Source: Chrysophaeum taylorii
Taxonomy: Eukaryota; Sar; Pelagophyceae; Pelagomonadales; Pelagomonadaceae
Reading direction: 5' to 3'
DNA: 43,907 nt
Assembly: GCA_029834535.1 (NCBI GenBank)
Contig: JAQMWT010000511.1
Coordinates: 1-43,907 of the forward strand
Both the position numbers and the translations under genes were made by a program. Below are positions 273 through 40,311 of the stretch, piece after piece. Numbering within the stretch: position 1 is the stretch's first letter; every line of letters begins with the position of its first letter. The notes beneath the pieces are model-generated. The model did not search any database. It saw only the letters and a list, made by a program, of their open reading frames with translations, and was not told the origin of the DNA.

Positions 273-334
273 AGGATTGTAAAAATTGACGTATAGGATG
301 TGTTGCATTGGGTAATGGCTCCATAGAGGAGCGT

Positions 335-526
335 TTAAAGCACAACTGATGGTAAGTACACTCGGTTGAACAGAGTGAGTACGTTGCTCGTGAGCCTGTT
401 GTGAGTGAAGGCGAAGTAGTAACATATTGAGGGATTCAAGGTCAGCCATAGTAAGCTGAGCAGAACCTGTGCGAGAGTAAGGTGCAAACGTTTTAGGAAT
501 GGATATGTATGGAGGATCGGGAACAC
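335..526 (-). pseudogene. C5-methyltransferase variable region, decayed (copy A)
   Basis: This short open frame continues the copy A methyltransferase after another frame change. It contains the segment YYFAFTHNRLTSN, which copy B also has (about 9000-9060). It corresponds to the target-recognition part, between motif VIII and motif IX, a region that varies among C5-methyltransferases. Motifs IX and X of this copy would lie further left and are not in the window. Confidence 0.5.
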
Positions 527-753
527 CGGATCCAGTCTTTGGTTAGGTGATTAGGTAGCCAAAGGCGCTTGGGAATAGCTTGTAGATCATCCACGATCTT
601 TAGGAAGGGGCGTGGATGGAGGATGGGCCACGATGATAGTTTAACTGGTCCAGTAGAATATCTGCGGGCGACGGCATATCCACCTTTCTCTAGATTGGTA
701 GTCGCCACATAGGTAGGTCGGGAACCTATCAACAACATCGACACAGTAATCAA
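493..753 (-). pseudogene. C5-methyltransferase, continuation after frameshift (copy A)
   Basis: This frame continues the methyltransferase that ends in the wrong frame at 641. It reads VARRYSTGP, then SWPILHPRPFLKIVDDLQ, matching the in-frame continuation in copies B and C directly after the QSRER motif. The frame change comes from one extra base near 675 relative to C. It covers the start of the target-recognition region and breaks off again near 493. Confidence 0.65.
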
Positions 754-3508
754 GGGTAGTATAGATAAGGTTGGCCACTGTGATGTGGTCTTGATGACAG
801 TACTTATGCGGAGGCGTCATCTCAGCCAGTAGTACCAAGGGCTGGAGTAGCTTGATGACAGACAGCATGCTGTCGAAAAGAGAATCGTCCAGCAGACTGT
901 GTAAGTCTTCTGACTTTTGTTGTTTTAGTAAATTCCTGTTTGTGCAGGGAGGAGTGATCTCAATTATATCACAATAGAATGAGCGCCTTTCCTCGGGTGA
1001 GATTAGGTGAAGATGGTTAATAAAGGCGGGGAGAGATTCAAATAATAGTACAGTAGGAAAACGGTGGCGTAACATACGAACAAGCGTATCATCAGACTCA
1101 ACAACAACTTTTACATTGATATTTAAGCCGAAGTTATTAGTGGCTTGAGACAGGAACGCCGGAGTTGACAAACCAGAACAAAGTAACATGACAGAGGGTT
1201 TGCGGATATTGGACTCTTGTGAGAGAAAAACTGGGCGTGAGAGTATGCAGGTTAATGGCTGCGTGTTTTGCTGAACAAGCTTGTTCTGTTTCCGAAGATT
1301 GAGAACCAAAGGGCGAATCCACGGGCGATCTGGTAAAACTCTTTGGAGTAGGTAGTTGTAGTATGCCAGTAGATCCCTGTTTTCATGGTATCGCCTGAGG
1401 GGAAATGCGAGAGAGCGAAGTTCCAGCCGCTTGTCGCGCGCGATGTTGTAAGTGAGACAAGGGAGAGCGGGTAAATTAGCTGCTACATAGTGTATGGGTA
1501 TACGTACATCTTTGTCTATGCGGCTCGTGACAGCACTGAGCTTTGGCTCAGCTCGATCGTTGAACACGGTGGTAAGATTGGTCTGGTTCCATTCGAGCAT
1601 ACTCAGGATAGCGAGATGTCGGTCACGCACTGGTTGAAGACATAAAGCGAAGTGGATCTTAACGTAGCCAATTTGTGGATGATCTGGTAGGGGAATAACG
1701 ATGTTGCGCGTTAACATCATGTGTGATGCCCGTTGTTGTCCTGTTGCCGTCTGAATAACAATCGGAGCGTACTTAGAGTCCAATGGTATTATATGATTGG
1801 GTATAGCGAAATCGCAGGTGGACATCAAGGAGATGGTAGCACAAGAGTCAAAATATAGGAAAGAGCAATGTGGAGGGACACTGTTTACCTTCATGTAGTT
1901 GGTGAGGAAGGCGTTTTCCGAATGTGGGCAAGTAGTGGAAAGACTAGCGGTAAAGTAATTCTTCAGCAATAACAGATTCGTTGGAATAATGATCGGTTGA
2001 ACAGGTGGTGATGGCTCGTCAGCCTCATCAGCCATGCCGTGCTTTTCGTCAAATGACGATAGGGAGTGTGACATCCCTTTGGTTTCGGCTTGTGATGGTA
2101 GGTTGAGGGCAGATTGGACCTGTGAAGATAGCGAGGACAATAATGCTGGTGGTAAAGCCGAGATGGCGGAAGCGGTAAAGAGGTTAGACACAGTATTGGA
2201 AGGATTACCCTGTGTGTTTGTAGTAGGAGGAGTTGTTGTTGGGGTGGGAGCAGTAACGACAGTATGGTGTTGTGGCTCCACGTAGTTTAACGACTTTTCG
2301 GTCGAGGATAGATGAACGTCTACATCATAAATGATGTCTTCTGCAAACATGAGCTGTTCGTTTAGACGAAGTAAACTACTGTTGTCCTCAGTAGATGTTG
2401 TTGACAGGATATCGGCTGATTGTAATAGAGTCTCAAATAACTTGTTGATATTCTGTTGTAGCTGAGCCGTGGTATCATTATCTGTCACATGCTTCGTGAG
2501 TTCGCTACACTGTTCTCGCAGGGTGTTTAAGGTGTGGTTTGTTCGATCTAATAATTTCATGTTAGACCGAGAGGACCTGTCAAAAGTGCGGGGGTAAATT
2601 GGACGGTCATGGGACTGTCCGGCAGTTTTCTTGGTGACGTAAGAATCACCAGGACGATAATACGATAAATCGCTGCGAGAGAAAGGCTGGCGAGCATCAT
2701 TAGAGTTACGCAAGCGTCTAGCATTAAACGTGGAAGATGTACCAGGTTGGGACGAAGTGATGAAGGCGAGTGTGTTAGCAGTTTGAGTCAGACTTTTGTC
2801 TGATGAGTCCAAAGTATGTGTAAGTAGTAACTTTGGCTTTGGTTGAGATGATAAACCTTCGACATAGGGTTGCCAAGAAACAGGGCGTTCTAAGCGTCTT
2901 TTGTTCGACCCATTTGATACGACATTGTAAAGGTCTAATGCGTATTCTAAAATGTAGCTTGGGTTGGTAGGGTGACACAATCGTTCAGCTTCTGGCACAG
3001 GTCGAGATGAAGATCGGGTTTCGTACATATAACACCAATCTACCCAACCACGATCGTAACGGTTGTTGCTGGTATTATCGGCATAATGCCGATGTATCTC
3101 TTCATAGATTTTTCTGCAAAGAGTGCCAAAGTCGAATTGAAGGTCAGTCTCTTCCTGGTTAAGTTGGTAAGAGATTTGCCTAAATGCTAGGACAGCTTCG
3201 ATAAATACATGGACATACCAGTTAGGATTATAAACAACAGAGTTAAATTGCTGTTTCAAATAAGACACATCAGTAGTCGTAACAGACTCGTAGTGACTAA
3301 AGGCGATGAGCATAATAGCTCGAGCCTTGTTGGGTAAATAGCTTTTGTTGTATATCTCATTGATGGCGGGCCAGGCCGCAAGTGCCGGTTTTCCAACACT
3401 TTCAAGATTGAAGTAAGTATGCAAGAATGTAGCGTACGTGTTCTGGTAAGTGTGCCAGTCAGCTGCAGTTAACGAAAACATGGTAACCGGGGCACGAACA
3501 CGCAACAC
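641..3508 (-). CDS. Gag C-terminal part, aspartic protease and C5-cytosine methyltransferase polyprotein (copy A)
   Basis: An open frame of 955 residues. Residues 1-400 are gag-like with no CCHC zinc knuckle visible. STEKSLNYVEP at 402-412 is a candidate protease site. The aspartic protease has its active site at FDSCATIS (Asp554). From about 755 onward is a C5-cytosine DNA methyltransferase: motif I VMLLCSGLSTPAFL (773-786), the acidic VVVESDD (801-807), motif IV with catalytic Cys855 in ITPPC, motif VI LLAEM with Glu896, and motif VIII QSRER (938-942). The frame is lost after WICRR by a one-base insertion. The upstream gag part (3459-4112) is in another frame because of 5 extra bases near 3500, so the apparent start methionine is not a real start. 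The C5-MTase assignment rests on ordered motifs seen by eye. Confidence 0.8.
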   Translation of the reverse strand: MLRVRAPVTMFSLTAADWHTYQNTYATFLHTYFNLESVGKPALAAWPAINEIYNKSYLPNKARAIMLIAFSHYESVTTTDVSYLKQQFNSVVYNPNWYVHVFIEAVLAFRQISYQLNQEETDLQFDFGTLCRKIYEEIHRHYADNTSNNRYDRGWVDWCYMYETRSSSRPVPEAERLCHPTNPSYILEYALDLYNVVSNGSNKRRLERPVSWQPYVEGLSSQPKPKLLLTHTLDSSDKSLTQTANTLAFITSSQPGTSSTFNARRLRNSNDARQPFSRSDLSYYRPGDSYVTKKTAGQSHDRPIYPRTFDRSSRSNMKLLDRTNHTLNTLREQCSELTKHVTDNDTTAQLQQNINKLFETLLQSADILSTTSTEDNSSLLRLNEQLMFAEDIIYDVDVHLSSTEKSLNYVEPQHHTVVTAPTPTTTPPTTNTQGNPSNTVSNLFTASAISALPPALLSSLSSQVQSALNLPSQAETKGMSHSLSSFDEKHGMADEADEPSPPVQPIIIPTNLLLLKNYFTASLSTTCPHSENAFLTNYMKVNSVPPHCSFLYFDSCATISLMSTCDFAIPNHIIPLDSKYAPIVIQTATGQQRASHMMLTRNIVIPLPDHPQIGYVKIHFALCLQPVRDRHLAILSMLEWNQTNLTTVFNDRAEPKLSAVTSRIDKDVRIPIHYVAANLPALPCLTYNIARDKRLELRSLAFPLRRYHENRDLLAYYNYLLQRVLPDRPWIRPLVLNLRKQNKLVQQNTQPLTCILSRPVFLSQESNIRKPSVMLLCSGLSTPAFLSQATNNFGLNINVKVVVESDDTLVRMLRHRFPTVLLFESLPAFINHLHLISPEERRSFYCDIIEITPPCTNRNLLKQQKSEDLHSLLDDSLFDSMLSVIKLLQPLVLLAEMTPPHKYCHQDHITVANLIYTTLDYCVDVVDRFPTYLCGDYQSRERWICRRPQIFYWTS

Positions 3509-4112
3509 GAGTGTCGAAAGCTAGTGCCTTCGGGTGCGCGCGATTTAAGATTCGTTCCTCTTCTAAGAAACGAGCGTTGATTTCAGGACGTAATGCCTTG
3601 ACTTCATAGTCGTAACAGACGGTAGTTAGCTGAGCTACTTCTGCATCAGGTAAGTGGGGGAAAGCTTCGTTGGTGAAATGCCATTCCTGATACTCAGGGG
3701 GTAACTCATCAACAGCTAAACGGAGATCAGCAGCCCTATCGGTCTTCCATTCCAGGAAAACGCGATCGAGAATTTGATTCCGGAGGATTTCGTAGTCCTT
3801 GCATGACCGAGTATATGCTTCATACGAGTCGTACTCGAGGAAAGCATCGGCATGACTGGACCGTAGTAATTGCTTGATATGCTTGATTTGCAAGGATACC
3901 TTGCGGTTCTGAAGCTGAAAGCGGTTGCCCTCATTAAGAAACTCAACTACAGGAGCTTCGAGCTTCAATATATCCGCACCTGTGATCGCCTTAGGTGCGG
4001 CTCGTGCTGCGTGTTCTGCCATAGCAGTTGACGGGGAACCTGTGGGTTCAGTCACGCAGTTGACACTGTCTAGACATTCTAAGGGGGTCTGTCTATCGGT
4101 GTCTATGTACAC
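3459..4112 (-). CDS. Gag N-terminal part (copy A)
   Basis: A 217-residue frame beginning MYIDTDRQTPLECLDSVNCV, just inside the LTR and primer-binding site, as expected for gag. Copies B and C have the same start, which supports the initiator methionine. It is acidic and lysine/arginine-rich with likely helical segments, and has no recognised domain. The last dozen residues (ACSCPGYHVFVNCS) are out of frame: copy C reads straight through into VRAPVTMFSLTAADWH, which in A is the start of the next frame. Gag would form the particle in which reverse transcription occurs. Confidence 0.7.
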   Translation of the reverse strand: MYIDTDRQTPLECLDSVNCVTEPTGSPSTAMAEHAARAAPKAITGADILKLEAPVVEFLNEGNRFQLQNRKVSLQIKHIKQLLRSSHADAFLEYDSYEAYTRSCKDYEILRNQILDRVFLEWKTDRAADLRLAVDELPPEYQEWHFTNEAFPHLPDAEVAQLTTVCYDYEVKALRPEINARFLEEERILNRAHPKALAFDTRVACSCPGYHVFVNCS

Positions 4113-4198: not shown

Positions 4199-4845
4199 GG
4201 CAGCTGGTTAGTTTTGGTGCTCTCAAGGAGCTTGTTAAGTGCATTGCCATGGAATGTACGAGTGGACGTACCCAAAATATTCCATAACATGTGTGCAAGA
4301 GTACAGGTTAGCCAATTACACACACATCAACATTGACATGACAATACGATGCTATGAACAGGTGCACACAAGGTTACACGATCACGTGCGCTTAAAAGAT
4401 ATTATATACAGCCCAATGGTAATAGCGATACATTGACAAGCGTGTCACATGTCGAGGCTGAGCTGGCGCGGTAACAGCCCAATACCCATAGGTTACGTGC
4501 ATGTTGACACATGGTTTCTCAGGGACCCGCCTACAGAGTATTTAGCAAGCAGTGGTAAGTCACCTGGGAAACCATCCCGTCTCATCGTGTACGTCTGGAA
4601 AAGGTTAATTCGGGGAATGAAGGTTATGTTCCCTATATCCTCAGAACACGACAGGCGGCATCTAGAACTACACGAGAAAGGTTAAGTGTATAGTGCTACA
4701 TACCTCGGGACGCGCTAGACCATGATGATGAGCGTAGGCACAAATCAGAGGACTATTTGATTGTGTAGAAAGGAAGAAGAAGGGTAAGGAAGAGATCACG
4801 CTCTCAACGGACGGATAAGGGTAAGAGGCAGCAGATTTCTCTGCA
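4199..4845 (-). repeat. LTR of copia copy A (5' LTR)
   Basis: About 647 bp, reading TGCAGAGAAATCTGCT at its start (plus-strand position 4845) and ending next to the candidate primer-binding site. Closely related copies are at 13465-14122 and 27421-28082. All three stop at the same base on the right, followed by different DNA, which fixes the outer border. A TATA-like box (TGTATATAAT, minus strand, near 4402-4410) lies after an inverted CCAAT-like CCATTGGGC, so U3 is probably the half near 4845. The inner border is inferred. Confidence 0.7.
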
Positions 4846-8689: not shown

Positions 8690-9585
8690 ACGCCTAAGAC
8701 TGCACGCAGTCTCCACCATGTACCCGGAGAGGGTCAAATCTCTCCAACCGGTTAAGAAGTAGGTGTTGTGTGATGTTGATGAGGTTGTAAGTAGTAACCT
8801 ATGTGACGGTTGGTCAGTTTCGAAAACGGTTATGCAATAGGACACAGGAGTGGGTGAGTTAGCGTCAATCTGGCAAACACGTTATATAGGATGGTGAAGG
8901 CCTTGATTGCAATGGATTAGTTGCATGTGGCAGTGGTTCCATGGAGGAGCGTTTGAAACACAGCTGATGATAAGTACACTCGGATTGAGCAGAGTGCGTG
9001 CGTTGCTCGTGAGCCTGTTGTGAGTGAAGGCGAAGAAATAATAAATTGAGTGTTTCAAGGTCGGTCATAGTAAGCTGAACAGAACCTGTGCGATAGTAGG
9101 TGCAAAAGTTTTAGGAACGGGGACATCTGGGGGATCGGGGAACACCCGGATCCAGTCTTTGGAGATATCTTTGGATAGCCAAAGTCGTTTAGGAATGGCT
9201 TGTATGTCATCCACGATCTTAAAGAAGGGGCGTGGGTGGTGGATAGGCCATGAAAGTATGTTGATTGGTCCAGTAGATTACCTTCGTGCGATGCAGATCC
9301 ATCTTTCCCTAGATTGGTAGTCTCCACATAGGTAGGTCGGGAACCTGTCAACAACATCAACACATTAATCGAGTGTGGCATGGATGAGATTGGCCACAGT
9401 TATGTGGTCTTGATGACAGTACTTGTGGGGTGGTGCCATCTCAGCCAGTAGTACCAAGGGCTGGAGAAGTTTGATGACAGACAGCATACTGTCGAACAGA
9501 GAGTCGTCGAGCAGGCTGTGTAAGTCTTTGGTCTTATGCTGCTTTAGTAGATTCCTGTTAGTGCAAGGACGAGTTATCTCAATAA
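8690..9585 (-). pseudogene. C5-methyltransferase, catalytic C-terminal half (copy B)
   Basis: Minus-strand frames from 9585 leftward show CDIIEITRPCTNRNLLKQH (motif IV with the catalytic Cys; Pro-Pro has become Arg-Pro), LLAEMAPPHKYCHQ (motif VI), and after a frame change the target-recognition segment (SWPIHHPRPFFKIVDD) and LLLTTSSTSHN. It matches copy C closely up to about 8690, then is replaced by element D. The N-terminal half is on the other side of the insertion at 9596-9957. Several frameshifts make it non-functional. Confidence 0.65.
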
Positions 9586-9595
9586 TATCGCAATA
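9586..9595 (+). repeat. 10-bp target-site duplication, left copy (TATCGCAATA)
   Basis: TATCGCAATA is repeated exactly at 9958-9967 around the short element. The same site in copies A and C is uninterrupted. Confidence 0.85.
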
Positions 9596-9957
9596 AACCC
9601 TTACCCTGATCGCCGACTGCGGTTGCGATGGAGGACGGTGCCTCATGAATCCTGAGCCTTGCGAGGGCATCCGCCCTCCCGGCGTAGGTTGGCACCTATT
9701 CGCCTCCCGGGCGGGCCGGTTGGCAGCCGGAACGTGCGCAGTGGGACGGGGTATGGCCGGGGGGGGCAGACGGAAGGTTATCGACGAGTTGGTTGTCGGT
9801 CACATCGCGGTCTCCTCGTCGCATGGCGACAAGCTTGATGGTCACTCTCCGCCGACCGACCTTTCGGCGCTCCTCGTCTACAGGCCCGTGATTCCGGACT
9901 GGCTCCTGTCGGTCCGGCCTGGCTCCCATGCTCGGGAGAGGTCTGAAGTTAGTTAGT
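9596..9957 (+). mobile_element. Short LINE-derived element, copy 2 (full length)
   Basis: The reference copy: it begins AACCCTTACCCTGATCGCC and ends in GAAGTTAGTTAGTT. Its last 40-50 bp (GGCTCCCATGCTCGGGAGAGG plus tail) are nearly the same as the LINE 3' end at 18371-18430. Its 5' third resembles the LINE 5' end in the GGCCGGTTGGCAGCCGGAA region. A frame of 103 codons (9645-9956) stays open through it. Flanked by 10-bp duplications. It splits the methyltransferase of copy B just upstream of its catalytic PPC-type motif. Confidence 0.9.
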
Positions 9958-9967
9958 TATCGCAATA
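9958..9967 (+). repeat. 10-bp target-site duplication, right copy
   Basis: Exact repeat of TATCGCAATA at 9586-9595. Confidence 0.85.
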
Positions 9968-10237
9968 GAATTTGCGCCTTTCCTCTGGTGAGATTTGGTG
10001 AAGATGGTTGATAAAGGCGGGTAAAGATTCAAATAATAATACTGTAGGGAAGCGGTGGAGTAACATGCGCACGAGCGTATCATCAGACTCAACAACAACT
10101 CTTACATTGATATTTAAGCCTAGGTCATTAGTGGCTTGAGACAGGAACGCTGGGGTTGACAAACCAGAGCAGAGTAACATGACAGAGGGTTTGCGAATAT
10201 TGGGCTCCTGTGAGAGAAACACTGGGCGAGAAAGCAT
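9968..10237 (-). pseudogene. C5-methyltransferase, N-terminal half with motif I (copy B)
   Basis: Begins at ATG immediately after the TGA that ends the upstream gag-protease frame (TGAATG), as in copy C. It reads MLSRPVFLSQEPNIRKPS, then motif I VMLLCSGLSTPAFLSQ (the S-adenosylmethionine loop) and VVVESDDTLVRMLLHRFP, and breaks off at RRKFYCD where the short element is inserted. The catalytic half is at 8690-9585. Confidence 0.7.
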
Positions 10238-11869
10238 TCATGTTAATGGCGGAGTGTTTTGCTGGACGAACTTGTTATGTTTCCTAAGATTAAGAACCAA
10301 AGGGCGAATCCACGGGCGATCTGGTAAAACTCTCTTGAGGAGATAGTTATAATATGCCAGTAGATCCCTGTTTTCGTGGTATCGCTTGAGCGGAAATGCG
10401 AGGGAGCGCAGTTCGAGTTTCTTGTCGCGAGCGATGTTGTAGGTGAGACAAGGGAGAGCAGGCAAGTTAGATGTTACGTTATGTATGGGAATACGCACAT
10501 CTTTGTCTATGCGGCTCGTGACAGCGCTGAGCTTTGGCTCAGATCGATCACTGAACACAGTGGTCAAGTTCGTCTGGTTCCACTCGAGCATGCTCAATAT
10601 AGCGAGATGTCGGTTGTGCACTGGCTGAAGACATAAAGCGAAGTCAATCTTCACGTAACCGATTTGTGGATGATCTGGTAGTGGGACAACTATGTTACGT
10701 GTTAACATCATATGTGAGGCACGTTGTTGTCCAGTGGCAGTTTGTATAATAATCGGCGCGTATTTGGGATCCAGTGGAATAATATGATTTGGAATCGCAT
10801 AGTCGTAGCTGGACATTAACGATATGATAGCACAAGAGTCAAAATATAAAAAGGAACAATGTTGGGGAGCACTGTTTACCTTCATATATTTCGTTAGAAG
10901 TGCATTTTCCGAATGCGGGCTAGTAGTGGAGAGACAGGCAGTGAAGAAGTTATCCAGAAATAATAGGCTAGTTGGAATGATAGTCGGTTGAACAGGTGGT
11001 GATGGTTCGTCAGCCTCATCAGCCATGCCGCACTTCTCATCAAATGATGATAGCGAGGTCTTATCGACATCCCTTGTGGTTTCGGCTTGTTGTGGTTGGT
11101 TAATGGCTGATTGGACCTGTAAAGATAGCGAAGACAGTAACGCTGGTGGTAACGCCGAGATGGAGGAAGCAGAAAAGAGGTTAGGCACTATATCAGAGGG
11201 GTTACCCTGTGTATTGGAGGCATTCTTGGTATCTGTAGTAGGAGGAGTTGCCTTTGGGGTGGGAGCAGTAGCAACAGTATGATGTTGTTGCTCCACGTAG
11301 TTTAACGACTTTTCGGTCGAGGATAGATGAACGTATACATCATAAATGATGTCTTCTGCGAAAATGAGTTGTTCGTTTAGACGAAGTAAGTCACCATTGT
11401 CCTCAGTAGATGTAGTTGATAGAATATCGGCGGATTGCAACAGAGTCTCAAATAACTTGGTGATGTTCTGTTGTAGCTGAGCCGTGATATCATTATCTGT
11501 CACATGCTTCGTAAGTTCACTACACTGCTCTTGCAGTGTATTTGTGGTGTGCTTAGTTCGATCCAATAATTTCATATTAGATCGAGAGGACCTGTCGAAA
11601 GTGCGAGAGTAAATTGGATGGTCATGGGACTGTCCAGCAGTTTTCTTGGTGACATAAGAATCACCAGAACGATAATACGATAAGTCGCTGCGAGAGAAAG
11701 GCCGACGTGCATCGTTGGAGTTACGCAAGCGTCTAGCGTTAAACGTGGAGGATGTTCCAGGTTGAGAAGAAGTAATGGACGCAAGAGCGTTTGCAGTTTG
11801 AGTCAGGCTTTTGTCTGATAGATCCAGCGTGTTTGTAAGTAGTAATTTCGGTTTTGGTTGTGGTGTCAA
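10238..11869 (-). CDS. Gag C-terminal part and aspartic protease (copy B)
   Basis: 543 open residues. The first about 190 match the gag region of A and C. STEKSLNYVEQ (plus positions 11297-11318 at the DNA level) is the candidate cleavage peptide. The protease has FLYFDSCAIIS with the catalytic Asp-Ser, then TATGQQRASHMMLTRNIVVP, which is the most conserved stretch of the three copies. It ends NTPPLT followed by TGA directly next to the ATG of the methyltransferase frame, whereas copy A reads through this point. Upstream gag (12325-13008) is separated by the element at 11994-12276. Confidence 0.75.
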   Translation of the reverse strand: MTPQPKPKLLLTNTLDLSDKSLTQTANALASITSSQPGTSSTFNARRLRNSNDARRPFSRSDLSYYRSGDSYVTKKTAGQSHDHPIYSRTFDRSSRSNMKLLDRTKHTTNTLQEQCSELTKHVTDNDITAQLQQNITKLFETLLQSADILSTTSTEDNGDLLRLNEQLIFAEDIIYDVYVHLSSTEKSLNYVEQQHHTVATAPTPKATPPTTDTKNASNTQGNPSDIVPNLFSASSISALPPALLSSLSLQVQSAINQPQQAETTRDVDKTSLSSFDEKCGMADEADEPSPPVQPTIIPTSLLFLDNFFTACLSTTSPHSENALLTKYMKVNSAPQHCSFLYFDSCAIISLMSSYDYAIPNHIIPLDPKYAPIIIQTATGQQRASHMMLTRNIVVPLPDHPQIGYVKIDFALCLQPVHNRHLAILSMLEWNQTNLTTVFSDRSEPKLSAVTSRIDKDVRIPIHNVTSNLPALPCLTYNIARDKKLELRSLAFPLKRYHENRDLLAYYNYLLKRVLPDRPWIRPLVLNLRKHNKFVQQNTPPLT

Positions 11870-13464: not shown

Positions 13465-14122
13465 TGGCAGCTGGTTATTTTGGTGCTCTCGAGGAGCTTG
13501 GTAAGTGCATTGTCGTGGAATGTGCGAGTGGACGTACCCAATATATTCCATAACATGTGTGCAAGAGTACAGATTGGCCAACTTACACACACATCAACAT
13601 TAACATGACAGCACGATACTATGAACAGGTGCACACAAGGTTGCACGATCACGTGTGCAAAATATGCTATATACAGCCCAATGGTAATGGCGTTGTATAA
13701 ACAAGCGTGTTTGCGTGGCGAGGCTGGACTGGCGCGGTAACTGTCCAAAACCCACAGGTTACGAGCACGCTTTAACACATGGCTTCTCAGGGACCCGCCT
13801 GGGCCCATAGCCTGCAGAGCATTTAGCATGCAGTGGTAAGTCACCTGGGAAAACCATCCCGTCTCATCATGAACGCCTGGAAGGTCAATTCGGGGAATGA
13901 TAGGTATGTTCCCTATATCCTCAGAACACGACAGGCGGCATCTAGAACTACACGAGAAAGGTTAAGTGTATAGTGCTACATACCTCGGGGCGCGCTAGAC
14001 CATGATGATGAGCTTGAGCACAAATCAGAGGACTAATTGACTGTGTAGAAAGGAAGAAGGGTAAGGAAGAGATCGCGTTCTCAACGGACGGATAAGGGTA
14101 AGAGGCAGCAGATTTCTCTGCA
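13465..14122 (-). repeat. LTR of copia copy B (5' LTR)
   Basis: About 658 bp, homologous to 4199-4845 and 27421-28082, with the outer border at the same TGCAGAGAAATC. A TATA-like CTATATAC lies at 13667-13674. The right flank is the open post-pol frame of element C (SRDHLDYQIFIE reads up to the border). This LTR could instead be read as the 3' LTR of C shared in tandem, but that does not explain why C's frame is cut mid-codon-run. Confidence 0.68.
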
Positions 14123-14516
14123 GTTCTATGAAGATCTGGTAGTCCAAGTGATCGCGAGATGCGTAGATGGAATCAATTGCCTTGAATAGGTCCGTATGTA
14201 GAAAGGATGATAAGAGGCCGGTGAAAGGAGTTTTGAATTTTTGGTCTGGCGTGATAGATGATCCATGTTCCTGCTGATAAACATTTAAAACGACAGCATC
14301 GGCAAACGTGGCTAGGGGGTTGGAGCCAGGCCGGATCGCAGCAGCAGAGGATGAGAGCAGACGAGTAATGTCGTCGCGATTCGGTTTCCTACGGTTCGGA
14401 GGAGTGTTGGTAGACGACTCAGCGGGCGTAAGTGTGCGAGGTAGCTCGCGTCGGGCGGTCGTGACTCCACGTGGGTGGTTGCTGCGCCAGTGATGCATTG
14501 GCGACGACGTACACAA
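14123..14516 (-). pseudogene. Post-pol ORF of element C (truncated by copy B)
   Basis: Starts soon after the RNase H stop at 14574. About 131 residues are its own: an Arg/Pro/Thr-rich N-terminus (NPRPP-like basic stretch, TPPNRRKPNRDDITRLLSS), then ATFADAVVLNVYQQEHGSS and SSFLHTDLFKAIDSIY. The rest of the apparent frame to 14025 is LTR of copy B. It does not look like the post-pol ORF of element D, although both occupy the same place. Unrecognised. Confidence 0.5.
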
Positions 14517-14573
14517 AAAGGTAGTGGCAAAAGACGAGGGCTAGTTTAATAACATTGCGGTCAGGGCTAGAGA

Positions 14574-15365
14574 TTAGGTATCTTCTTGGTCTGAGTCAGT
14601 AGCATGGTGCATACCTAGAAGAGAACGGGGCGTGGTAAAGTCGGCTGCAAGAGGCTTTGTGAAGCCATCAGCTACGTTTAACTTGCCAGGGACATGGTGA
14701 ACGCGAATTTTCTGTAGTGCGACATATTCGCGAATTTTGAAACATCGAGTGGAAAGGGCTTTGCTGCGAGAAGAACCGTCAGGGTTGTTGGACGTGTGCA
14801 CAGCTGCAGCATTATCAGACTAAAGAGTAAGGCTTCTGATGAAGCGCATATCCTCGACAAGAGGATTGTCGTCAGCGTCAAAATCGGAAGGAGGGTCAGT
14901 TAGCGTATTCATATATAATGTCGGATTAACAACAAACGAGAGCTCAAGAAGTAACTTACGGAGCCAGACTGCTTCGTCAGCGCAGATGCTGAGAGCGATA
15001 AGCTCAGCTTTGTGGGTAGAACACGAAACTATGGGTTGTAGTTTGCTTTTCCAGGCGATGAGGCAGTTGAACAGGTAGAAAACAAAGCCAGTAGTGGACG
15101 TTCTGTTTTCCTGTTCCAGTGAAGGAGCGTTGTCGGCATCCACCATAGCAACTAGAGGGTCGAAGTTGCCAGCAGCGATGTCTTTGTCCCGGTAGTCGAT
15201 TATTGTTGACAGGCCAACTCTATTAGATAAAATAACGCGTAGGTGGTTTTCGATGGCATTCCCTTTAGGGTGAAACCAGAGACGAAGAGCTCGATTGGCA
15301 GGTTTGCTGAGGTACCTTCGGAGGTGACAGAGCATTTGGACATGCACATAGGTGGGAGAGTGCAT
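14574..15365 (-). pseudogene. Copia RNase H domain with in-frame stop (element C)
   Basis: Reads MHSPTYVHVQMLCHLRRYL, VDADNAPSLEQENRTSTTGF, WKSKLQPIVSCSTHKAELIA and, after a TAG at 14820-14822, SDNAAAVHTSNNPDGSSRSK and NVADGFTKPLAADF. All are copia RNase H landmarks. In the STHKAEL block, Lys stands where element D has Glu. The TAG falls just before the SDNAAA active-site block, so this copy is inactive. It closes pol, with stop at 14574. Confidence 0.85.
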
Positions 15366-15799
15366 ACCTCGGGAACAGCGTCCTAGAGCTTAGGATAAAT
15401 CGGGGCGACAAGCAACTTGCATGAAGACCAATTTACCAAGTAGAGTAGCGAAGTGATCGTGGATATAATTTCCACGTCGGTAGGAGGTGATCCTTCTTTA
15501 TAAGTAAAAGTGGATGACATAGGATACCGTAGTGGGGTGAGGTTTTTTAGTAAGTGATGGTCGGTAAATAATGCCTCTAGTTTGCCTTCGACATCTAACG
15601 ATATGGATCCATCCGACGTTCGGCAGACACGCATTACCAGAAGAGTATGGACTGGCTCGAATTGTTCCAGAGAAGCGCTCATGTAACGCTTCTTGTAACT
15701 CTGTGCGGAGAGTGTCATCATTTGACACTATAACAATGTCGTCCACTGATAAACTGCAAATGACAAAGTGAGTGTGGGATGTGCGCACATATAAGCACG

Positions 15800-15811
15800 T
15801 ATCCGCATGGA
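15800..15811 (+). repeat. 12-bp target-site duplication, left copy (TATCCGCATGGA)
   Basis: TATCCGCATGGA is repeated exactly at 16182-16193 around short element copy 4. Confidence 0.88.
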
Positions 15812-16181
15812 CTAACTAACTAACTAACTTCAGACCTCTCCCGAGCATGGGAGCCAGGCCGGACCGACAGGAGCCAGTCCGGAATCACGGGCCTGTAGAC
15901 GAGGAGCGCCGAAAGGTCGGTCGGCGGAGAGTGACCATCAAGCTTGTCGCCATGCGACGAGGAGACCGCGATATGACTGACAACCCACTCGTCGATAACC
16001 TTCCGTCTTCGCCCCCCGGCCATACCCCGTCCCACTGCGAACGTTCCGGCTGCCAACCGGCCCGCCCGGGAGGCGAATAGGTGCCAACCTACGCCGGGAG
16101 GGCGGATGCCCTCGCAAGGCTCAGGATTCATGAGGCACCGTCCTCCATCGCAACCGCAGTCGGCGATCAGGGTAAGGGATA
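15812..16181 (-). mobile_element. Short LINE-derived element, copy 4 (full length)
   Basis: Minus-strand copy with the same start (CCCTTACCCTGATCGCC) and the same AGTT-type tail (plus strand CTAACTAACTAACTAACTT) as copy 2. Exact 12-bp duplications flank it. The 103-codon frame is open here too and happens to be in frame with the upstream RT, giving a misleading fused ORF at 15820-16401. Confidence 0.9.
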
Positions 16182-16193
16182 TATCCGCATGGA
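16182..16193 (+). repeat. 12-bp target-site duplication, right copy
   Basis: Exact repeat of TATCCGCATGGA at 15800-15811. Confidence 0.88.
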
Positions 16194-16974
16194 GTCGCTT
16201 ATATCCAAGACTCCGAAAGAAGCCGTCGATCTCTTTGTTCCAGAGAGAGGAATATTGTCTGAGTCCATAGAGGGATTTCAGCAACTTGGGTAAGCGACGG
16301 CCACGGTATTTATCGTCGTGAGGATCAAGTAGTTTGATGCCATCCGGGAGTTGAACGTAGACGTGTGCGTTGATGTCGGACTGGACGAACGCGTTGGGCA
16401 CGTCACTATGGTAGACCGGTAGTTTTTTGTACGCCGCAATTGTAAGATGACACGTATGGCGGTCGTAGTTGCCATAGGGCTGAACGTCCCTAAGAAATCA
16501 GCGCCAAGTGAGGCTAGAAATCCACGCAAGACTAATATGGCCTTGTGCTTGATGTAATCGCCGGACGCGTTCGTCTTGATCTCGAGGACGAGCCGGCTGT
16601 CAATTGGACGAGTAGAGCCATCAGGTAGAGATAGCTTAAAGCAGCCGAAGCGCACTATATCATGCAGTTCCTTTGCGACGGCCTTGACATAGGCTTGTCT
16701 GTCTTCCGGGGAAAGGCCTTGAATACACCTGCGCTTGTACTCGTCGATGGAAACGTCGGCCTCTTGGACTTTGTATTCATTCGGACCTATAGTGGCTGGA
16801 GAGCCGTAGTTTAACGACGTTTCGGTCGAAGCAGTGTAGAGGACTTCAGGATGTGCGTGAGTGGCACAAGTGGAGGGGGTAGAGTGGTCAGGTTCCAAGG
16901 CAACAACCAGGAGGGGTTCCTCATGAAGTAACTGGGTGGTGTACTCGGTAGTGCATAGAAGGTATTCCTCCAGG

Positions 16975-18363
16975 TCAGACAATCGGCGGATGTAGCGCCA
17001 AACTCAGATGGCGAGTGATCGATGAGACTGGTGGGTGCCAGGTAACAGTAAGCGTATTGCAATGGAGAGACACCAAACGCGGAAGCATGTTGAACATAGC
17101 GACAAGTGAAGGCGGGAGGTGCCCACTAGGAGTGGCATCGGTGAGGAGGTGTGTAGCTACTGGGATGCTGGATGCGCATTTGGTTTGCGAGAAAGCACCA
17201 TCGAGTAAGGGGTAGCGAGATAGAAGATCGGTGCGCAATGGAAGGAGGTGTTTGACCAGCAGAGCCTGTTCCCCCTCTGGGCAGAGAGCCGTCCAGTGGA
17301 TGCCACCAGAGGTGTTGAGGGAGGAGAGGGTGGGTGATTTGAAATCGAGAAAGCGATGTTGAAGGTCCCAGCGGAAGTCAGCGAGTTTGCCGCCAGCGGC
17401 TTTATAGGTACCAACCGTAGAAGCTTGGAGCCGAGCATTGACAGACGTCATGGAGGAGGCTTTACGCTGGTTGGGGCGCTTAGTCCCCGGGACAAGTTGA
17501 AGGTGGTCTGGAGAGAACAAGTCCTTGTAGGAAGGGAGAATTGGCTGTGGCGAAATGGTATTGTCGTCAGGAGAAGTAGTGTCGTCAGCAAGTGGTGAGG
17601 CTGCGGATGTAGGCCTAGGAGAAGGAGGCGGAGTAGGCGACGGAGCAGGAGCGGGCGTGCGCCCCCTCTCAGGATGAATCCCCCTCTGCAACGCATCATC
17701 GGGGTCTTCATCTCGATGAGGGTTAATGTCGAAGGATACTGGCGGAGCCTCGGGTGGAGGGGCATGTTCAGGATCCAAGGGGGCGGCGGATCATGTAGGT
17801 GAAGGTCAGTTTAGAGGTGATGCGAAGCTGGCCATTTTCAGGATTAAGGACAACATCAGCTTGGTGGTCAACATGAGGAGAGACAAGTGGGTTTTGGGGG
17901 TTGGCGCAGCACAGGTAGAGATAGCGGCGCCGAGAGGGCTCATACTTGTGGTGTTCATGAGGCTCAAGGAGGAGGAAGCACTCGCTGCCAACGATCTGGA
18001 GGAGATCATGTTGAGGTGTTCCTTGTTGATTATAGAGAAACTGTTGAGGGCGGATGATGGCGTGGTGAATGCGTTCGAGTGAGGCATTTGGCAATAGGTT
18101 GTATGATTGGATGGTGTGGATCACAGCCCACGGGAAGTGGATGGCAGGTTCCACGATCTTGGCGCCACGGTAAAGGGCATTGAGAAGGTTGCGGAGGCGA
18201 GTACTTCGGATGCGAGTACTTCCGAGGCGAGTAGAGGAGGCGGGGGCAATAAAGCCTATGCTCTGTTCGACTTCGCGGTTAGAATGGTGAAGGTAAGGTG
18301 GGAAAGCAACAAGGTTGATGCCGTGTTCGACCCTGTAGGGAGTAGTTATGTGTTGGCTGAAGT
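16975..18363 (-). pseudogene. Copia integrase, C-terminal part and linker to RT (element C)
   Basis: Continues the integrase beyond the LINE: FPPYLHHSNREVEQSIGF holds the catalytic Glu in the copia-like N-R-E-V-E-Q context, then VEPAIHFPWAVIHTIQSYNLLP. The position expected to read S-D-N-G reads V-E-H-G, so the second catalytic Asp is not conserved. After a stop near 17768 the frame 17778-16975 is a proline/serine-rich linker (APAPSPTPPPSPRPTSAASP) and then SYKDLFSPDHLQLVPGTKRP and further sequence. This linker length is normal between copia integrase and RT. Confidence 0.7.
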
Positions 18364-18463
18364 ACGGCCGGAACTAACTAACTAACTAACTAACTTCGGA
18401 CCTCTCCCGGGCATGGGAGCCAGGCTGGGCCGGCAGGAGCCGGTCCAGGACCACAGAGCAAAA

Positions 18464-19342
18464 TCACACAGTTGGGGTAGGGGCGAGGGATGAAAAGGCG
18501 TTGATGGCGGACCGCCACTGTGCGCGGTCTTGTGCGAGGTCGTGCCACGAGTTGAAGGGGATGTCGCATTTCCGGTGTGCCTTGGCGAGCGTCCTCCCGT
18601 ACGTCATCTGCGGAGCCCTCGGTGGGCGCTTGGAGCGGACCCAAGACGAGAGCATCTTGAGAGGGAGTCGGGAGAAGGGCATGCGGGCGACGAGACCGGC
18701 CCAGCGGAGCTGGCGGCGCGTGACGTAGACGTCGATGGACTCGAGGCCGAGGCGCCGCTGCAGGATCTCCGTTGAGATGTGGTGGAGCCAGGTGTGCTTC
18801 CGGGTCACACGACACATAACGCGAGCGCACTGCGCGTGGAAGCACCGCAGCCGGCGGAACAGGACCTCGGTGAGGCACCACGATTCCGCACCGTGAAGGA
18901 TGGCCAGGACGAGCGAGACGTAGACGAGGCGCTTGGCGCGAGCAGAGACGGACTTCGAGGCGAAGATGAAGTCCCGCAAGGCACCGAAGGCCTGAGGCGC
19001 CTTCTTGATCCGCGCGTCGACGTCTGAGTCGTCGCGGCAGTCGCGCGAGAGGACCGAGCCGAGGTACTTAATTAAACTGGTCGACGACCGGTATGAAGCG
19101 GCCGCGCCCGAGCTCGATGTCCGAGAGGTCCGTGTCGTCGAACGACTTCGGGTCGCCGTACAGGTGTGCCGGGCGAGCGACGAACAGCATCTCCGTTTTG
19201 GACGCCGCCTTCGTGTGTCGGTTGCCGCAATGCGCCTCCATGCCCCAGGCGTCGCAGTGTTCGATGAGGCGCGGTGTCTCGCTGGCGTTGATGTGGCGGT
19301 CCCAGAAGAGAAAGGCGATGTCGTCGGCGTACGCCGATTCAT
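18464..19342 (-). pseudogene. LINE ORF, C-terminal region after RT
   Basis: The informative part runs from IKYLGSVLSRDCRDDSDVDA through RLVYVSLVLAILHGAESWCL, RVTRKHTWLHHISTEILQRR and TRRQLRWAGLVARMPFSRLP, to the stop at 18464. These blocks follow RT in many LINEs. It is in a different frame from the RT (19068-20741); the change falls at about 19075, where the RT frame stops after VVDQFN. A one-base indel there most simply explains it. Confidence 0.75.
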
Positions 19343-20741
19343 CGAAGGGAAACTCGTCGCCGCGAGCGGACGAACCCCGGTTCGTCATCTGAAAGTCCTC
19401 CTGCGCACGGTTGACACACGGGGCGCGGCCATGGCGTCGTCGAAACGACGTCGTCGGTGCCGCCATAAACAGCACGAACAGGACGGGGCCGAGGACGTCG
19501 CCCTGCTTGACGCCGATGGTCGAGTCAACCGAGGCGACGACACCGCTGGCCGAGAAGTGGACCTGGATTCGGTGGAGGCCCTTGGTGACTTCGACGAGCT
19601 TCGGCGGGACGCCGAACTTCAGGAGCACCTCCCAGAGAAGCTCTCGCGGGACGCGGTCGAACGCCTTAACGAAATCGATGAACAGTACCCACGAGTCCTG
19701 ACCGTGCTCGCGCCGTTTCTTCAGCGTCAGCTTGAGCGAGATGGTGGCGTCGGACGTACCTCGCTCGGGTCGGAATCCACATTGGGACTCGTGATCGAGG
19801 GCCTCGCATATGACGTTGAGTCGCGCACGGACGATGTTCGAAACGATCTTCTGCGCGACCTCGAGCATCATGATCCCGCGGTAGTTGCCAGGCAGGGACA
19901 GGTCCCCCTTCTTGGGGAGAATCCCGAGGAGGCCTACGTCCCACTCGGCCGGCTGGACTTCGGACTCCCAGAACTCGAGGACTACACGCACCAACAGCGG
20001 GAGCGTGCGAGCGTCGGTGGCGAGCGCCTTCCAGACCTCCGCGCGCAGGCCCGATTCGCCGGGCGCGGTGCAGTTCAGCTCACAAACGGCCCGTTTTATC
20101 TCCTCCTGCGTCGGTGGTTCCCCGAGTTCCGGACGGATCGGCAAGTGGCCAGCGTCGTTGATCACGGTGGGGTCGCAGCGAGCTTGTCGACTGTAGACCT
20201 GGTTGAAGTGCGCCTTGAACACGCCGGCGTTCTCCTGTGGCGACGAGCACCTGCTACCGTCGGCCTTCGTCATCTGTACCTGCCTAGCCAATGTGGCTTT
20301 CGTGAGACCGCGTCGGTGCCGTCCGACCGTGTTCCAGTATTTCGAGGTGCCGCCGAGCGACTCGATTCCCGCGTTGAGTCCGTCGCACAGACGAGTAATC
20401 CATCGCTCTTTCCCCCGTGCTACGGCCTTCGCGAGCCGCGACTTGATCGCCCGAAGGTCGTCGAGGACCGTGGACGCCGAGCGAAGACGGCGCCGGGCAC
20501 CGAGCGGGAGCACAAACGCGTGGAGCGAGTTGCGTCGCTCGATCAGGCTGGAGCTCTTCCGCCGCGTCCTCAAACCATCCGGGTCGGAGGCGTCGGATCT
20601 TCGGCAGTAAGGCGTCAGAGGCCGAGGCCGCCGCCCGCGCAAGGCGGGAGTACGGCGAGGACGGCGAGGCCCGGTCGGCGTCGGGTACCCCGTCCGTGGC
20701 GTCGGTCGGTGCGTCGTCGGTCGCGTCGTCATGTGACCCAC
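19068..20741 (-). CDS. LINE reverse transcriptase
   Basis: The credible protein begins around residue 60 of this 557-residue frame. Landmarks in order: EEIKRAVCELNCTAPGESGL, ILPKKGDLSLPGNYRGIMML (RT block 2a-like), CGFRPERGTSDATISLKL, FIDFVKAFDRVPRELLW (catalytic Asp of motif A), GVKQGDVLGPVLFVLFM (motif B) and ESAYADDIAFLFWD (YADD, motif C, near 19310-19335). All catalytic residues are present. The frame ends early at 19068 by a frameshift. It copies LINE RNA at a nick made by the endonuclease and probably also serves the short elements with the same 3' tail. Confidence 0.88.
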   Translation of the reverse strand: MGHMTTRPTTHRPTPRTGYPTPTGPRRPRRTPALRGRRPRPLTPYCRRSDASDPDGLRTRRKSSSLIERRNSLHAFVLPLGARRRLRSASTVLDDLRAIKSRLAKAVARGKERWITRLCDGLNAGIESLGGTSKYWNTVGRHRRGLTKATLARQVQMTKADGSRCSSPQENAGVFKAHFNQVYSRQARCDPTVINDAGHLPIRPELGEPPTQEEIKRAVCELNCTAPGESGLRAEVWKALATDARTLPLLVRVVLEFWESEVQPAEWDVGLLGILPKKGDLSLPGNYRGIMMLEVAQKIVSNIVRARLNVICEALDHESQCGFRPERGTSDATISLKLTLKKRREHGQDSWVLFIDFVKAFDRVPRELLWEVLLKFGVPPKLVEVTKGLHRIQVHFSASGVVASVDSTIGVKQGDVLGPVLFVLFMAAPTTSFRRRHGRAPCVNRAQEDFQMTNRGSSARGDEFPFDESAYADDIAFLFWDRHINASETPRLIEHCDAWGMEAHCGNRHTKAASKTEMLFVARPAHLYGDPKSFDDTDLSDIELGRGRFIPVVDQFN

Positions 20742-21767
20742 GGCCCAAGCCGAAGATGTCGAACACTTTCGAGCACCACCGGCGCCGGAATCCGAAACGC
20801 GTGCTTTCTGAGCGCAGGGGAGCGTAGTCGAGGCGCGCCACAGAGGGCCGTGTGCCAGGAAGCCGTGCGAGGCGGACTTTGACGCGCAGGATGCACTTGA
20901 GAGCGCGGTGGTCCGAGTCCACGAGGTTGCTGGTCAAACCCACATCAGCGAACCGGTGCACGTCGCGCCGCCGTGAGATCATGTGATCGAGCTGGTACGT
21001 CTTCCAGGAGCGCGGGTGCAGCCACGACGCGTAGGCGCGCTTGCGGACGAACCTGCCGACCGACGCCAGGCGCCGTGTTGCGAGGAACGTTTGGAGACGG
21101 CGGCCAGCGTCGTTGACGTAAGGCGCCCCGCCCCGTACGGCCCACAGGGGCCGTCGACGACGTACTTGGAGCGCACCCCGAGAGCCGGGTTCCCGTCCAT
21201 CCCCAGGACGAGGATGTCGTCCGGCCGCCGCGCTTGAAGCGCAAGGTCAATGTCGTCGAAAAACGCGTCCCATTTCTCGTCAGGCGCGGTTCTGACAGGA
21301 GCGTAGGCGCTCATGACGAAGAGGCCGAGGTCTCGATCGTCATCGTCTTGGACATCGAGTCGCAGCGCAATGACTCGCGCAGATGCGCGGATAACGGTCC
21401 TGCCGCTCGCGTGCCACGCCTGTTGCGCCGCAGGGGACAGCACCACGGCCACACCTTGGCTGCCGTGGGAAGACTGCTCGGAGGCTGCCAAACCGGAACA
21501 AACAGCGACGTCGCCGTGTCGCTCGAGCGACTCGTTTGCCGGTGAGCCATGTCACCTGCAACGTGGCCGCGAAGATGTCCCGCCGCCGTAAAGATGCGAA
21601 CAACTCTTCCTTCTTCTCGTCGCGTCGCAGACCGCGAACGTTTTGGTCCTCGAATAATCGACCCGTCCGTCGCGTTCTACCCAACCGAGCGAACCCCATC
21701 CCAGCGCAGACTTTCCGGGTGCTAACCGGCCAGCCCGGGAGGCGAGCAGGCATTGTCTCACTCCGGG
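20284..21767 (-). pseudogene. LINE AP-like endonuclease (frameshifted)
   Basis: Pieces in three frames: DQNVRGLRRDEKKEELFASL (the N-V-R-G-L start of the endonuclease/exonuclease/phosphatase fold), SQGVAVVLSPAAQQAW, FVMSAYAPVRTAPDEKWDAF, RRPDDILVLGMDGNPALG (usual G-D-x-N-A as G-M-D-G-N-P), QLDHMISRRRDVHRFADVGL and LVDSDHRALK (the closing S-D-H). The usual Q-E-T is read as Q-V-T, so the catalytic Glu is replaced in this copy. Frame changes lie near 21520 and between 20980 and 21100. The linker to RT includes an acidic and Ser/Pro-rich stretch. Confidence 0.75.
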
Positions 21768-21774
21768 ACGGCCG

Positions 21775-22583
21775 TAGGTGCACATTGAGTTGTGTTTTGC
21801 AAAAGTTATGCATGTAGTCTAATGCTTGAGTAAATTCGGTGGCGTTAGAAGTGCGAGTGAAGTAGGCGAGTAGGAAATTGGATAGTAGTTCGTTGAAAAC
21901 GACAATATGGGAGATGCCGCCCCATTCAGAAGGTATGATTACGTAGCCACCATCGCAGGCCCAGATTTCACAAGGTCGGTGGGCCTGTTCAAAGTTGGGC
22001 TTAGTTTCGTTAGTATGGGCGTGGCGGTGACGTTTGTCGTGGCAGTTGCAGTCTATGCACATATCCCTGTAGGGAATATCGGATGCTGAGAAGCGAGGGC
22101 GAGCAAGAACGTCTGGGGCTTTGGCGGCAACGTTATCAGGACAGTGATGTAATGTACATTGTGGAAGCGGTTGGCGCGTTCTTTGGCATTTTGGTGTTCG
22201 ACTGTGCCATGGGCGAGTGATTTGCGAGGGATTGCTTTGACCGGGATGTGTTTCTTCCGACGGACATTTAACTTGAGCTCAGTGGATGCGTCTAATGATG
22301 GGGCATCAGGATCATCGTTAATGTCAGCATCATCAGCAGTGGGAGTTATAGCAAGGGCTTCTTTCGGGGTTGTTCCCGAGGAACGGTAGTTTAACGACTT
22401 TTCGGTCCAGCTGCAGTTGGAAATGTGACTCATGAATGCAGCCGCCTGAAAGATAGTGCCTGAGCTGTGACTGGAAAGAAGCAGTTCACGGTTGAGGAAG
22501 GTAGCTACGCAAGTCTTCTTCAAGGTAGCACTGTCATGTTGAAAGGAAGGGTTCAACACAAGTGACTTCATATCGGCGACCAC
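21775..22583 (-). pseudogene. Copia integrase, N-terminal part (element C)
   Basis: Begins after the methyltransferase with the candidate cleavage peptide WTEKSLNYRSSG (22386-22407). An acidic spacer leads to KSLAHGTVEHQNAKERANRF and CIDCNCHDKRHRHAH, a possible His/Cys zinc-binding pre-integrase region (H..H..C..C). The core follows: RPCEIWACDGGYVIIPSEWG with the first catalytic Asp, and NELLSNFLLAYFTRTSNATEF. A frame change near 22057 separates the two parts. It is cut at QLNVHL by the LINE; the remainder is at 16975-18363. Confidence 0.75.
22386..22407 (-). other. Repeated 22-bp motif encoding TEKSLNY at the methyltransferase/integrase junction
   Basis: The same 22 bp occur at the gag/protease junction of A (2282-2303), B (11297-11318) and C (25510-25531), and with one mismatch at the integrase/RT junction of C (16806-16827, TETSLNY). 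They encode T-E-K-S-L-N-Y. Retroviral-type proteases often cut after hydrophobic or aromatic residues such as N-Y, so a cleavage site is plausible, but not shown. Confidence 0.55.
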
Positions 22584-24451
22584 GCGACAGATGTGGGTGT
22601 AAAGAGGTGATAAGTGCCCACAGGTAGAGCATTGCTAAGTAGGTCGCAGCATAAGTCTTTCTTCAATGAAAGTAGGAAGGACGTCTGGAAGCGAGTGTGG
22701 TTGTTGGCTTTGATAAGTTCGGCTCGCGTGGGGTAGCGGAGTTTGCCGTTGCGAGGGTCCAACAAGATGATATTGGCATATCCCCGGATAGTTGGCAATG
22801 GAGCCGACATAGAGTGAATTTTGGATCCGAGCTTGCGGTCGCTGCCGCGTAAGCAGCCAATATACCTGCTATGAGAAAGATGGTAATCTTCCAAGGAAAA
22901 ATATATGTCCTTGAAAGTAAATTGGTCGGAGGGTTGGTTGTACGAGAGACAGTCAGGTATAACAAGAGAGCACTGTTGGAGTAAGTTGCGGATGGCAGGG
23001 ACAGTGTTGTGGGGTGCGTTGACAAGGGGGTAGGCTTGCACTTAGCCATAGGTATCCCTGAAACGAGTCGAGATGGAGCTTCTTATCGGCGGGATTATCG
23101 CTGGCGGTTAGGGTGTAAGTAGATCCATATGCGTCAATGGAAGCCTGGTATTTGCTTGCATTGTTCTCAACTAGTAAGTTGCCATCAGAGTGGTGTCCAC
23201 CGGTAAGAGTGTTGATATTGAAGGTAGATGAGGAAGTTGTAAGAAATAGCCTAGGAGCGGGCTGGATTGTTTCGAAGATCGTAACATAGTAAGATACAGG
23301 TGTAGCATTGTTCGGCGAGATGCTGGCGGAAAAATTGTATAGAGTGATAAATGGCTTGAGGCGAAGAGGATGTGATAATCCGGGTAGTGGTCGATTAGAA
23401 GACCTCTTGAAGCCAAGGTGATGATAGGAACACTCCGAGTGCGTTTTATGTGTATGTTGTTCGAAAGCTTGCTGTGAATGAAGCCTGAGGAAGGGTAGGT
23501 TGAGGGTCTCAAGCTCATAGAAGCTTAACCGAACGGTGCCAGTACGAGAGTACAAGGGAAACGTCTTGGGGGAGTGAACCAATGGTGGATCTGGGTATGT
23601 GCGAACCCTGCCTTGAGACAGAGTCTTAGAGAGCCAGAGGGTTTTAGGCACGGAGTTAACGCCATCTGCTATGTCCAAGAAGCGCTTCGGGTGCTGGTTC
23701 GGCCAGGACAGGATGTCCATGGGTCCAGTGTTGTACCTGCGAGCAATGCAGATCCATCGTTCCCGAGATTGACAATCGGCCTGTAAGTCATCCACGATCT
23801 TTAGGAAGGGGCGTGGATGGAGGATAGGCCATGAAAATATGTTAATTGGTCCAGTAGAATACCTGCGCGCGATGCAGATCCATCTTTCTCTAGATTGGCA
23901 GTCGCCACAGAGGTAGGAGGTCGGGAACCTATCAACAACATCGACACAGTAATCGAGTGTAGCATGGATGAGATTGGCCACAGTTATGCGGTCTTGATGA
24001 CAGTACTTGTGCGGAGGTGTCATCTCAGCCAGTATAGTACCAAGGGTTGGAGTAGCTTGATGAGAGACAGCATGCTGTCGAAAAGAGAGTCGTCCAGCAG
24101 GCTGTGTAAGTCTTCGGTCTTGTGCTGCTTTAGTAGATTCCTGTTCGTGCAGGGAGGAGTAATCTCAATGATATCACTATAAAATTTGCGCCTTTCCTCT
24201 GGTGAGATTAGGTGAAGGTGGTTAATAAAGGCGGGGAGAGATTCAAATAATAATACTGTGGGGAAACGGTGGCGTAACATACGAACAAGCGTATCATGAG
24301 ACTCAACAACAACTTTTACATTGATATTTAAGCCTAAGTCATTAGTGGCTTGAGACAGGAACGCTGGGGTTGACAAACCAGAACAAAGTAACATGACAGA
24401 GGGTTTGCGAAGATTGGGCTCTTGTGAGAGAAACACTGGGCGAGATAGCAT
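22565..24451 (-). pseudogene. C5-cytosine DNA methyltransferase, full module (element C)
   Basis: The only copy covering the whole enzyme. In order: ATG after TGA at 24451, motif I VMLLCSGLSTPAFLSQ, VVESHDTLVRMLRHRFP, motif IV IIEITPPCTNRN (catalytic Cys), motif VI AEMTPPHKYCHQ, motif VIII CQSRERWICIARRY, a variable target-recognition region, motif IX as PTIRGYANIILLDPRNG (near 22774-22800), and motif X as LLSNALPVGTYHLF (22616-22636; the usual G-N-A-V-P is S-N-A-L-P). The motif VIII segment is present twice in tandem. A 2-bp insertion near 24030 and a frame change near 23045 disable it. It would methylate cytosines, perhaps in the element's own cDNA (inference). Confidence 0.8.
23700..23905 (-). 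repeat. Internal tandem duplication of the motif VIII segment
   Basis: DCQSRERWICIARRY, then TGP and SWP.HP..FL.I.D, occurs twice in a row (about 23905-23790 and 23785-23690) with several differences between the two. A and B have it once. The second copy is followed by a different continuation (DGVNSVPKTLWLSKTLSQG), so C looks like a recombinant between two related methyltransferase elements. Confidence 0.7.
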
Positions 24452-25716: not shown

Positions 25717-25754
25717 ATGCTTCGTAAGTTCGCTACACTGCCCTTGCAGTGTAT

Positions 25755-27340: not shown

Positions 27341-27385
27341 TCGTTATCGATGGGAAAATGTCTATTTGACAACTGTGCAAGCTGT

Positions 27386-34916: not shown

Positions 34917-34920
34917 AAAG

Positions 34921-40310: not shown

Positions 40311-40311
40311 G

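Follow-up and report, generated by a model that had tools for sequence, protein, structure and literature searches.

According to the available sections of PMC5890265, DNA methyltransferases (DNMTs) are carried by LINE (long interspersed nuclear element), DIRS and Gypsy retrotransposons, and Copia elements of Symbiodinium have no DNMT domain. A later report, as far as its available excerpt goes, mentions some DNMT3 embedded in long terminal repeat (LTR) Copia and DIRS elements, citing the 2018 paper that describes Gypsy (PMC12344493); we read "Copia" there as a slip for Gypsy, further data behind it being conceivable. A literature survey covering mostly titles and abstract openings, and excluding most subscription papers and bioRxiv preprints, found no copia family with a methyltransferase between protease and integrase. 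Here we analyze a stretch of Chrysophaeum taylorii DNA, hereafter the window, which is the entire 43,907-nt contig C511 (JAQMWT010000511.1) of the 70.8-Mb assembly G000. Its minus strand holds three related elements with 5' ends at 4845 (A), 14122 (B) and 28082 (C). They are probably fragments of an LTR retrotransposon of the Ty1/copia type in which Pol opens with a C5-cytosine DNA methyltransferase (C5-MTase), and for which we infer passage of a preceding TGA and subsequent methylation steps. Methylation is usually viewed as a host weapon against transposons; here an element may write the same marks.

In copy A, the minus-strand frame 3520-641 contains a Gag-like part and the motif FDSCAT (~1852-1835), which we take to be a retropepsin-like protease motif, and from 1246 onwards carries in order the MTase motifs I (VMLLCSGLSTPAF, ~1192-1151), IV (ITPPC, ~961-935), VI (AEM, ~829-809) and VIII (QSRER, ~697-683), positions being worked out by hand and motif names, here and for IX and X below, being our own presumed assignments. 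A first-pass annotation of the letters alone had noted these ordered motifs in one frame behind the protease, which we confirm. Its statement that the MTase directly follows the protease holds as to order, but a TGA lies between the two in most copies read, and copy A has lost it (TGC at 1247..1249, the family's conserved TGA site). Likewise, the span 641-1250 that it assigned to the MTase carries motifs I-VIII but only those, copy A leaving the frame near 674: the N-terminal part (residues 1-191, motifs I, II, IV, VI and VIII) occupies 674..1246 and a frameshifted remnant (residues 176-319) 292..717. The ordered-motif pattern was absent from 20,000 shuffles of an intact domain, a pattern written after seeing the sequence and so tailored that the related proteins P0007 and P0008, introduced below, do not fit it.

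A first genome search returned 52 matching stretches (89-100% identity) in at least ~48 places, a lower bound as 48 of 1928 candidates were scored; a search with the MTase query gave at least 74 matches (69 of 1604 candidates scored). Fuller copies of this family (family A) read LTR, Gag-protease, in-frame TGA, MTase-integrase-reverse transcriptase (RT)-RNase H, LTR, with Gag named by position and protease by motif. The frame behind the TGA extends up to 1691 codons and encodes an MTase of ~600 residues followed by integrase and RT; Pfam reports RVT_2 at 3.8e-42, with SH3_retrovirus (2.9e-4) and rve (0.0074) both below Pfam cut-offs, and the integrase D, D and E residues were recognized by eye. 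In the copy on contig C42, the one copy tested, a 3' LTR of ~313-315 nt is 92.7% identical to its own 5' terminus, and this match at both ends yields an element length of ~11.85 kb, the RNase H region lying beyond stops. Four RT-RNase H loci differ by only 1 to 9 of 1758 nt, and some copies are therefore young.

Two results are negative for this domain. Family A, searched as window fragments and as the full domain of the fuller copy L015, has no PF00145 match in Pfam; and the copies display no excess of CpG decay, C-to-T change being 5.40% at CpG versus 5.24% elsewhere (ratio 1.03) with CT sites changing most (6.1%), a pattern that argues against the copies being strongly methylated at CpG. 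Further direct searches gave little: family A matched nothing among PDB sequences, its Gag-protease-half MTase query found nothing in the protein database at E 1, the MTase query of a second copia family of the same genome (family B, see below) found nothing there at 0.01 and one weak row among PDB sequences (8yf3, 0.035), and the viral contigs searched gave no match. Relatives were reached only with an integrase-RT query, which retrieved 134 proteins with E values no worse than 1e-10, of which 120 were listed. At the top of that list stand P0007 and P0008 (ENA records), both carrying a C5-MTase. P0008 matches PF00145 at 1.8e-9 together with RVT_2 at 2.5e-38. P0007, which begins MFRIGTVCSGLL, has no Pfam match to PF00145 of its own; it aligns with the family A MTase at 8e-12 and again, across motifs IX-X, at 6e-4, and with the P0008 MTase stretch at 2e-6. 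Homology thus runs through intermediates, from family A to P0007 to P0008, to accepted PF00145 members, P0008 and family B both matching that profile.

The chain was examined with decoys by comparing the P0007 domain with 127 proteins, each in forward and in reversed form (127 decoys). Family B scored 6.6e-15, family A 4.8e-14 and P0008 9e-7, versus 2.4 for the best decoy, 3 for the top scorer among the 118 further copia proteins and 5.6 for the host locus L019. In the other direction scores are biased: reversed sequences still reach 9e-4 (family A, against its own profile) and 2.3e-6 (family B). We therefore rely on the P0007 query. The absence of a direct Pfam match in family A could hint at chance resemblance, contamination or an assembly error, which we consider extremely improbable: chance resemblance is rejected mainly by the decoys of this test, and the ~48 genomic places (a lower bound), the homologues in ENA records and purifying selection argue in the same direction. 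A fold comparison returned C5-MTases as best matches, which suggests a fold of that kind. Of the two signs that the first-pass annotation named as telling against its reading, the missing PF00145 hit is thus real for family A, but the fold comparison did not point to a fold lacking the MTase core. Membership of the domain in the C5-MTase superfamily is supported, as is its proposed position in a Ty1/copia element, behind protease and ahead of integrase, with RVT_2 downstream, the homology chain to PF00145 members and, more tentatively, the fold matches as evidence.

Codon comparisons indicate that the MTase is under purifying selection. Mean NG86 dN/dS is 0.186 over 91 pairs in family A (14 of 15 distinct clean copies, L014 being left out for a deletion), a value that the choice of stop-free copies biases somewhat low, and 0.153 over 6 pairs in family B. 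By region, values are 0.265 for the linker (81 pairs), 0.105 for the core (91), 0.25 for a part resembling a target recognition domain (TRD-like; 91) and 0.129 for motifs IX-X (90). Family A presents the ordered motifs I, IV (PC), VI (E), VIII (QxRxR), IX and X, and the PPC cysteine, the Glu of motif VI, the two Arg of QSRER and the motif X Asn are invariant in 15 aligned copies, chosen stop-free; the cysteine, the Glu and one of the two Arg are common to other MTases, and a ten-row MTase alignment is good in every row only as far as motif VIII. A domain that is a C5-MTase by descent but that Pol retains non-catalytically, only for binding DNA or RNA or as a structural component, would suit the high divergence, with AEM rather than ENV as motif VI, and the missing CpG footprint; we nevertheless regard it as unlikely, given the invariant catalytic residues and a core dN/dS below that of the TRD-like region. 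Action on RNA (primer tRNA or element RNA) in the manner of DNMT2 seems still less plausible: in the fold comparison the rows and bacterial DNA MTases tie to within 1 Z, the domain includes a large TRD-like region, and the accessible text of PMC5890265 treats published retrotransposon DNMTs as enzymes that methylate DNA in particular contexts. These sequences are best read as encoding an active C5-MTase for DNA that is delivered together with Pol.

How Pol would be reached depends on the TGA. Its boundary was sampled at 30 fetched loci and the 3 window copies and is readable in 32 copies (L033 being unreadable): TGA in 29, TGC in one (window copy A), TGG in one, and deleted in one. Two contexts occur, TGA CTA with few variants versus TGA ATG or ATA, and UGA CUA is, in the accessible text of PMC4359377, the high-readthrough consensus in humans. 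No RNA structure downstream of the TGA stands out as a readthrough stimulator. Ribosomes presumably read through the TGA or restart at it. Restart alone, with MTase-Pol as a separate open reading frame (ORF2) never fused to Gag-protease, has in our judgment somewhat under an even chance: one subfamily has an ATG directly behind the TGA and P0007 begins with Met at its MTase (by the gene caller's choice), yet the other subfamily mostly has TGA CTA with its first ATG only at MTase residue 20, copies translated across the TGA keep the same frame on both sides, and family B and P0008, with no stop between the two parts, carry protease and MTase in a single open frame.

Family B was found by a PF00145 profile scan of the genome, which gave at least 124 matches (123 of 474 candidates scored); contig C511 is absent from these 124 rows. 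It comprises loci L049-L053 and L021-L028, the latter eight recognized by eye, and shows a protease-like motif (DGGAS), a PF00145 MTase, integrase and RT; the profile matches at 1.1e-9 in one copy and at 9.8e-8 with RVT_2 at 1.3e-17 in another, and L049 has protease and MTase in one frame without intervening stop. P0007, used as a genome query, gave 31 matches, of which those on C334, C331, C14, C679 and C589, placed beside family A matches, look like family A; the RT part of C37 and L015 share 98.7% identity across 299 residues. An RT tree was built from 52 rows (four MTase-bearing copia rows and 48 chosen from 115 usable of the 118 other matches). A branch supported at 100/99 separates the four from all other rows, bootstraps being not fully settled and several branches long. 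A single old capture is the simplest reading for the copia MTase.

The same genome contains a Ty3/gypsy-type element (L059, L056 and L060, all at one place on C386; L057 on C38) with a C5-MTase between a protease-like part and RNase H/integrase. RT_RNaseH (3.3e-24) and rve (5.4e-11) share one frame, the type being assigned with no RT domain identified, Gag and protease read by eye and the full layout taken from one place only. Its MTase matches PF00145 at 2.6e-5 and 6.3e-9 at two places and displays no detectable relationship to the copia MTases; it apparently derives from an independent capture. Many further rows of the PF00145 scan match the motif I end only, like this element, and may belong to it. 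One might tentatively propose, though we think it rather doubtful, that an old lineage of copia elements encodes a C5-MTase of its own at the start of Pol, which one family meters by a leaky TGA, and that a gypsy-type element independently captured another C5-MTase just behind its protease. If so, the slot behind protease would be a recurrent docking point for DNA methyltransferases working on cDNA within the particle, and the host methylome would be partly written by its parasites.

For the MTase of family A, a plausible course is that some ribosomes pass the TGA, by readthrough at TGA CTA and by restart at TGA ATG, that Pol then enters the particle, and that the protease frees the MTase. Either before integration or shortly afterwards, the enzyme would then methylate cytosines in the newly made DNA of its own element or in other copies, and the element could in this way mimic or adjust host silencing; what is targeted, when and to what benefit is what we infer. 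The first-pass annotation likewise proposed that the element might methylate its own cDNA or silence relatives. The host may have DNA methylation of its own, as suggested by a frame of 2086 codons (L020; PF00145 7.9e-18 in the part read) that we presume to be DNMT5-like. L019, presumably DNMT2-like, lies beside a chlorophyll a/b-binding frame (PF00504, 1.2e-13), which points to a photosynthetic eukaryote, probably an alga, and a scan of prokaryotic genomes with L019 found no relative.

The remaining minus-strand features of the window complete the three copies. In copy A, the 5' LTR (4531..4845) starts TGCAGAGAAATCTGC, matches the C42 element's 3' LTR at 97% and has an identical 5' end in other copies; the first open reading frame (ORF1, 1247..4022), comprising Gag, named by position only, and the protease-like FDSCA (~1835-1852), has a single frameshift near 3500, is continuous in other copies and has no match in a Pfam search. 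Copy B has a 5' LTR at 13812..14122 and an MTase broken into pieces: residues 1-93 (9959..10237) directly behind the TGA at 10238-10240 (TGA ATG context) and degenerate residues 75-374 (8747..9649). Element C (14123-28082) combines two subfamilies: the chimeric junction lies within the MTase, where the motif VIII segment is duplicated. Residues 1-139 (24035..24451), with an ATG directly behind the TGA at 24452-24454, are 91% identical to L015; the rest (22413..24035, motifs VIII, IX and X) derives from a diverged subfamily ~70% identical where cleanly aligned (71% across a 144-residue stretch that includes motifs IX-X). The claim that element C adds motifs IX and X is borne out for the region (22568-23041) but not for the wording, IX being RYPTRAELI (RYPTRxELI) rather than PTIRGY and X LSNALP. 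Its integrase region (17780..22152) is interrupted by a LINE-like insertion (RVT_1 3.3e-24 at 19068-20933), and RT and RNase H follow at 14820..16982, L054 aligning to the RNase H frame at 15526-14530. Elsewhere, the window contains a PIF1-like helicase (42443-43120; PF05970 1.2e-64), perhaps Helitron-borne, a Dor1-like frame (31427-32719; PF04124 1e-10) that is probably a host gene, and, at 34331-41500, long direct repeats spaced by ~1.5-2.4 kb, together with tandem units 187-296 nt in length.

The element fits what de Mendoza (2018) describes as a retrotransposon-encoded DNMT, a C5-MTase in the coding region of an element and under purifying selection. A Ty1/copia clade with a selected C5-MTase, young copies and relatives in other records extends such enzymes to another superfamily, and two apparently separate captures beside protease in one genome allow one to ask why elements keep such an enzyme. 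With Ty1/copia (Pseudoviridae) it shares RVT_2, integrase ahead of RT and LTRs beginning TG, but it differs by an additional ~600-residue MTase and by the TGA that separates protease from the remaining Pol. As far as the available text of PMC5890265 describes them, KnitGypsy-Dnmt3 of Klebsormidium nitens likewise holds a C5-MTase within Pol of an LTR-class retrotransposon, with Ka/Ks under 0.2 (0.186 overall here), but combines a Gypsy domain set, DIRS-like repeats and a Dnmt3-type enzyme, in contrast to the Ty1/copia RT, protease-MTase-integrase order and diverged MTase described here; SymbioLINE-Dnmt and SymbioDIRS-Dnmt3 of Symbiodinium also place many element-borne C5-MTases in a single algal genome, in LINE and DIRS elements. 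Sola1-1_Ec32 of Ectocarpus, one of the transposon-borne N4/N6 DNA MTases in the accessible part of PMC12477816, is again a mobile element with its own DNA MTase, but is a DNA transposon with another enzyme class and the gene on the opposite strand.
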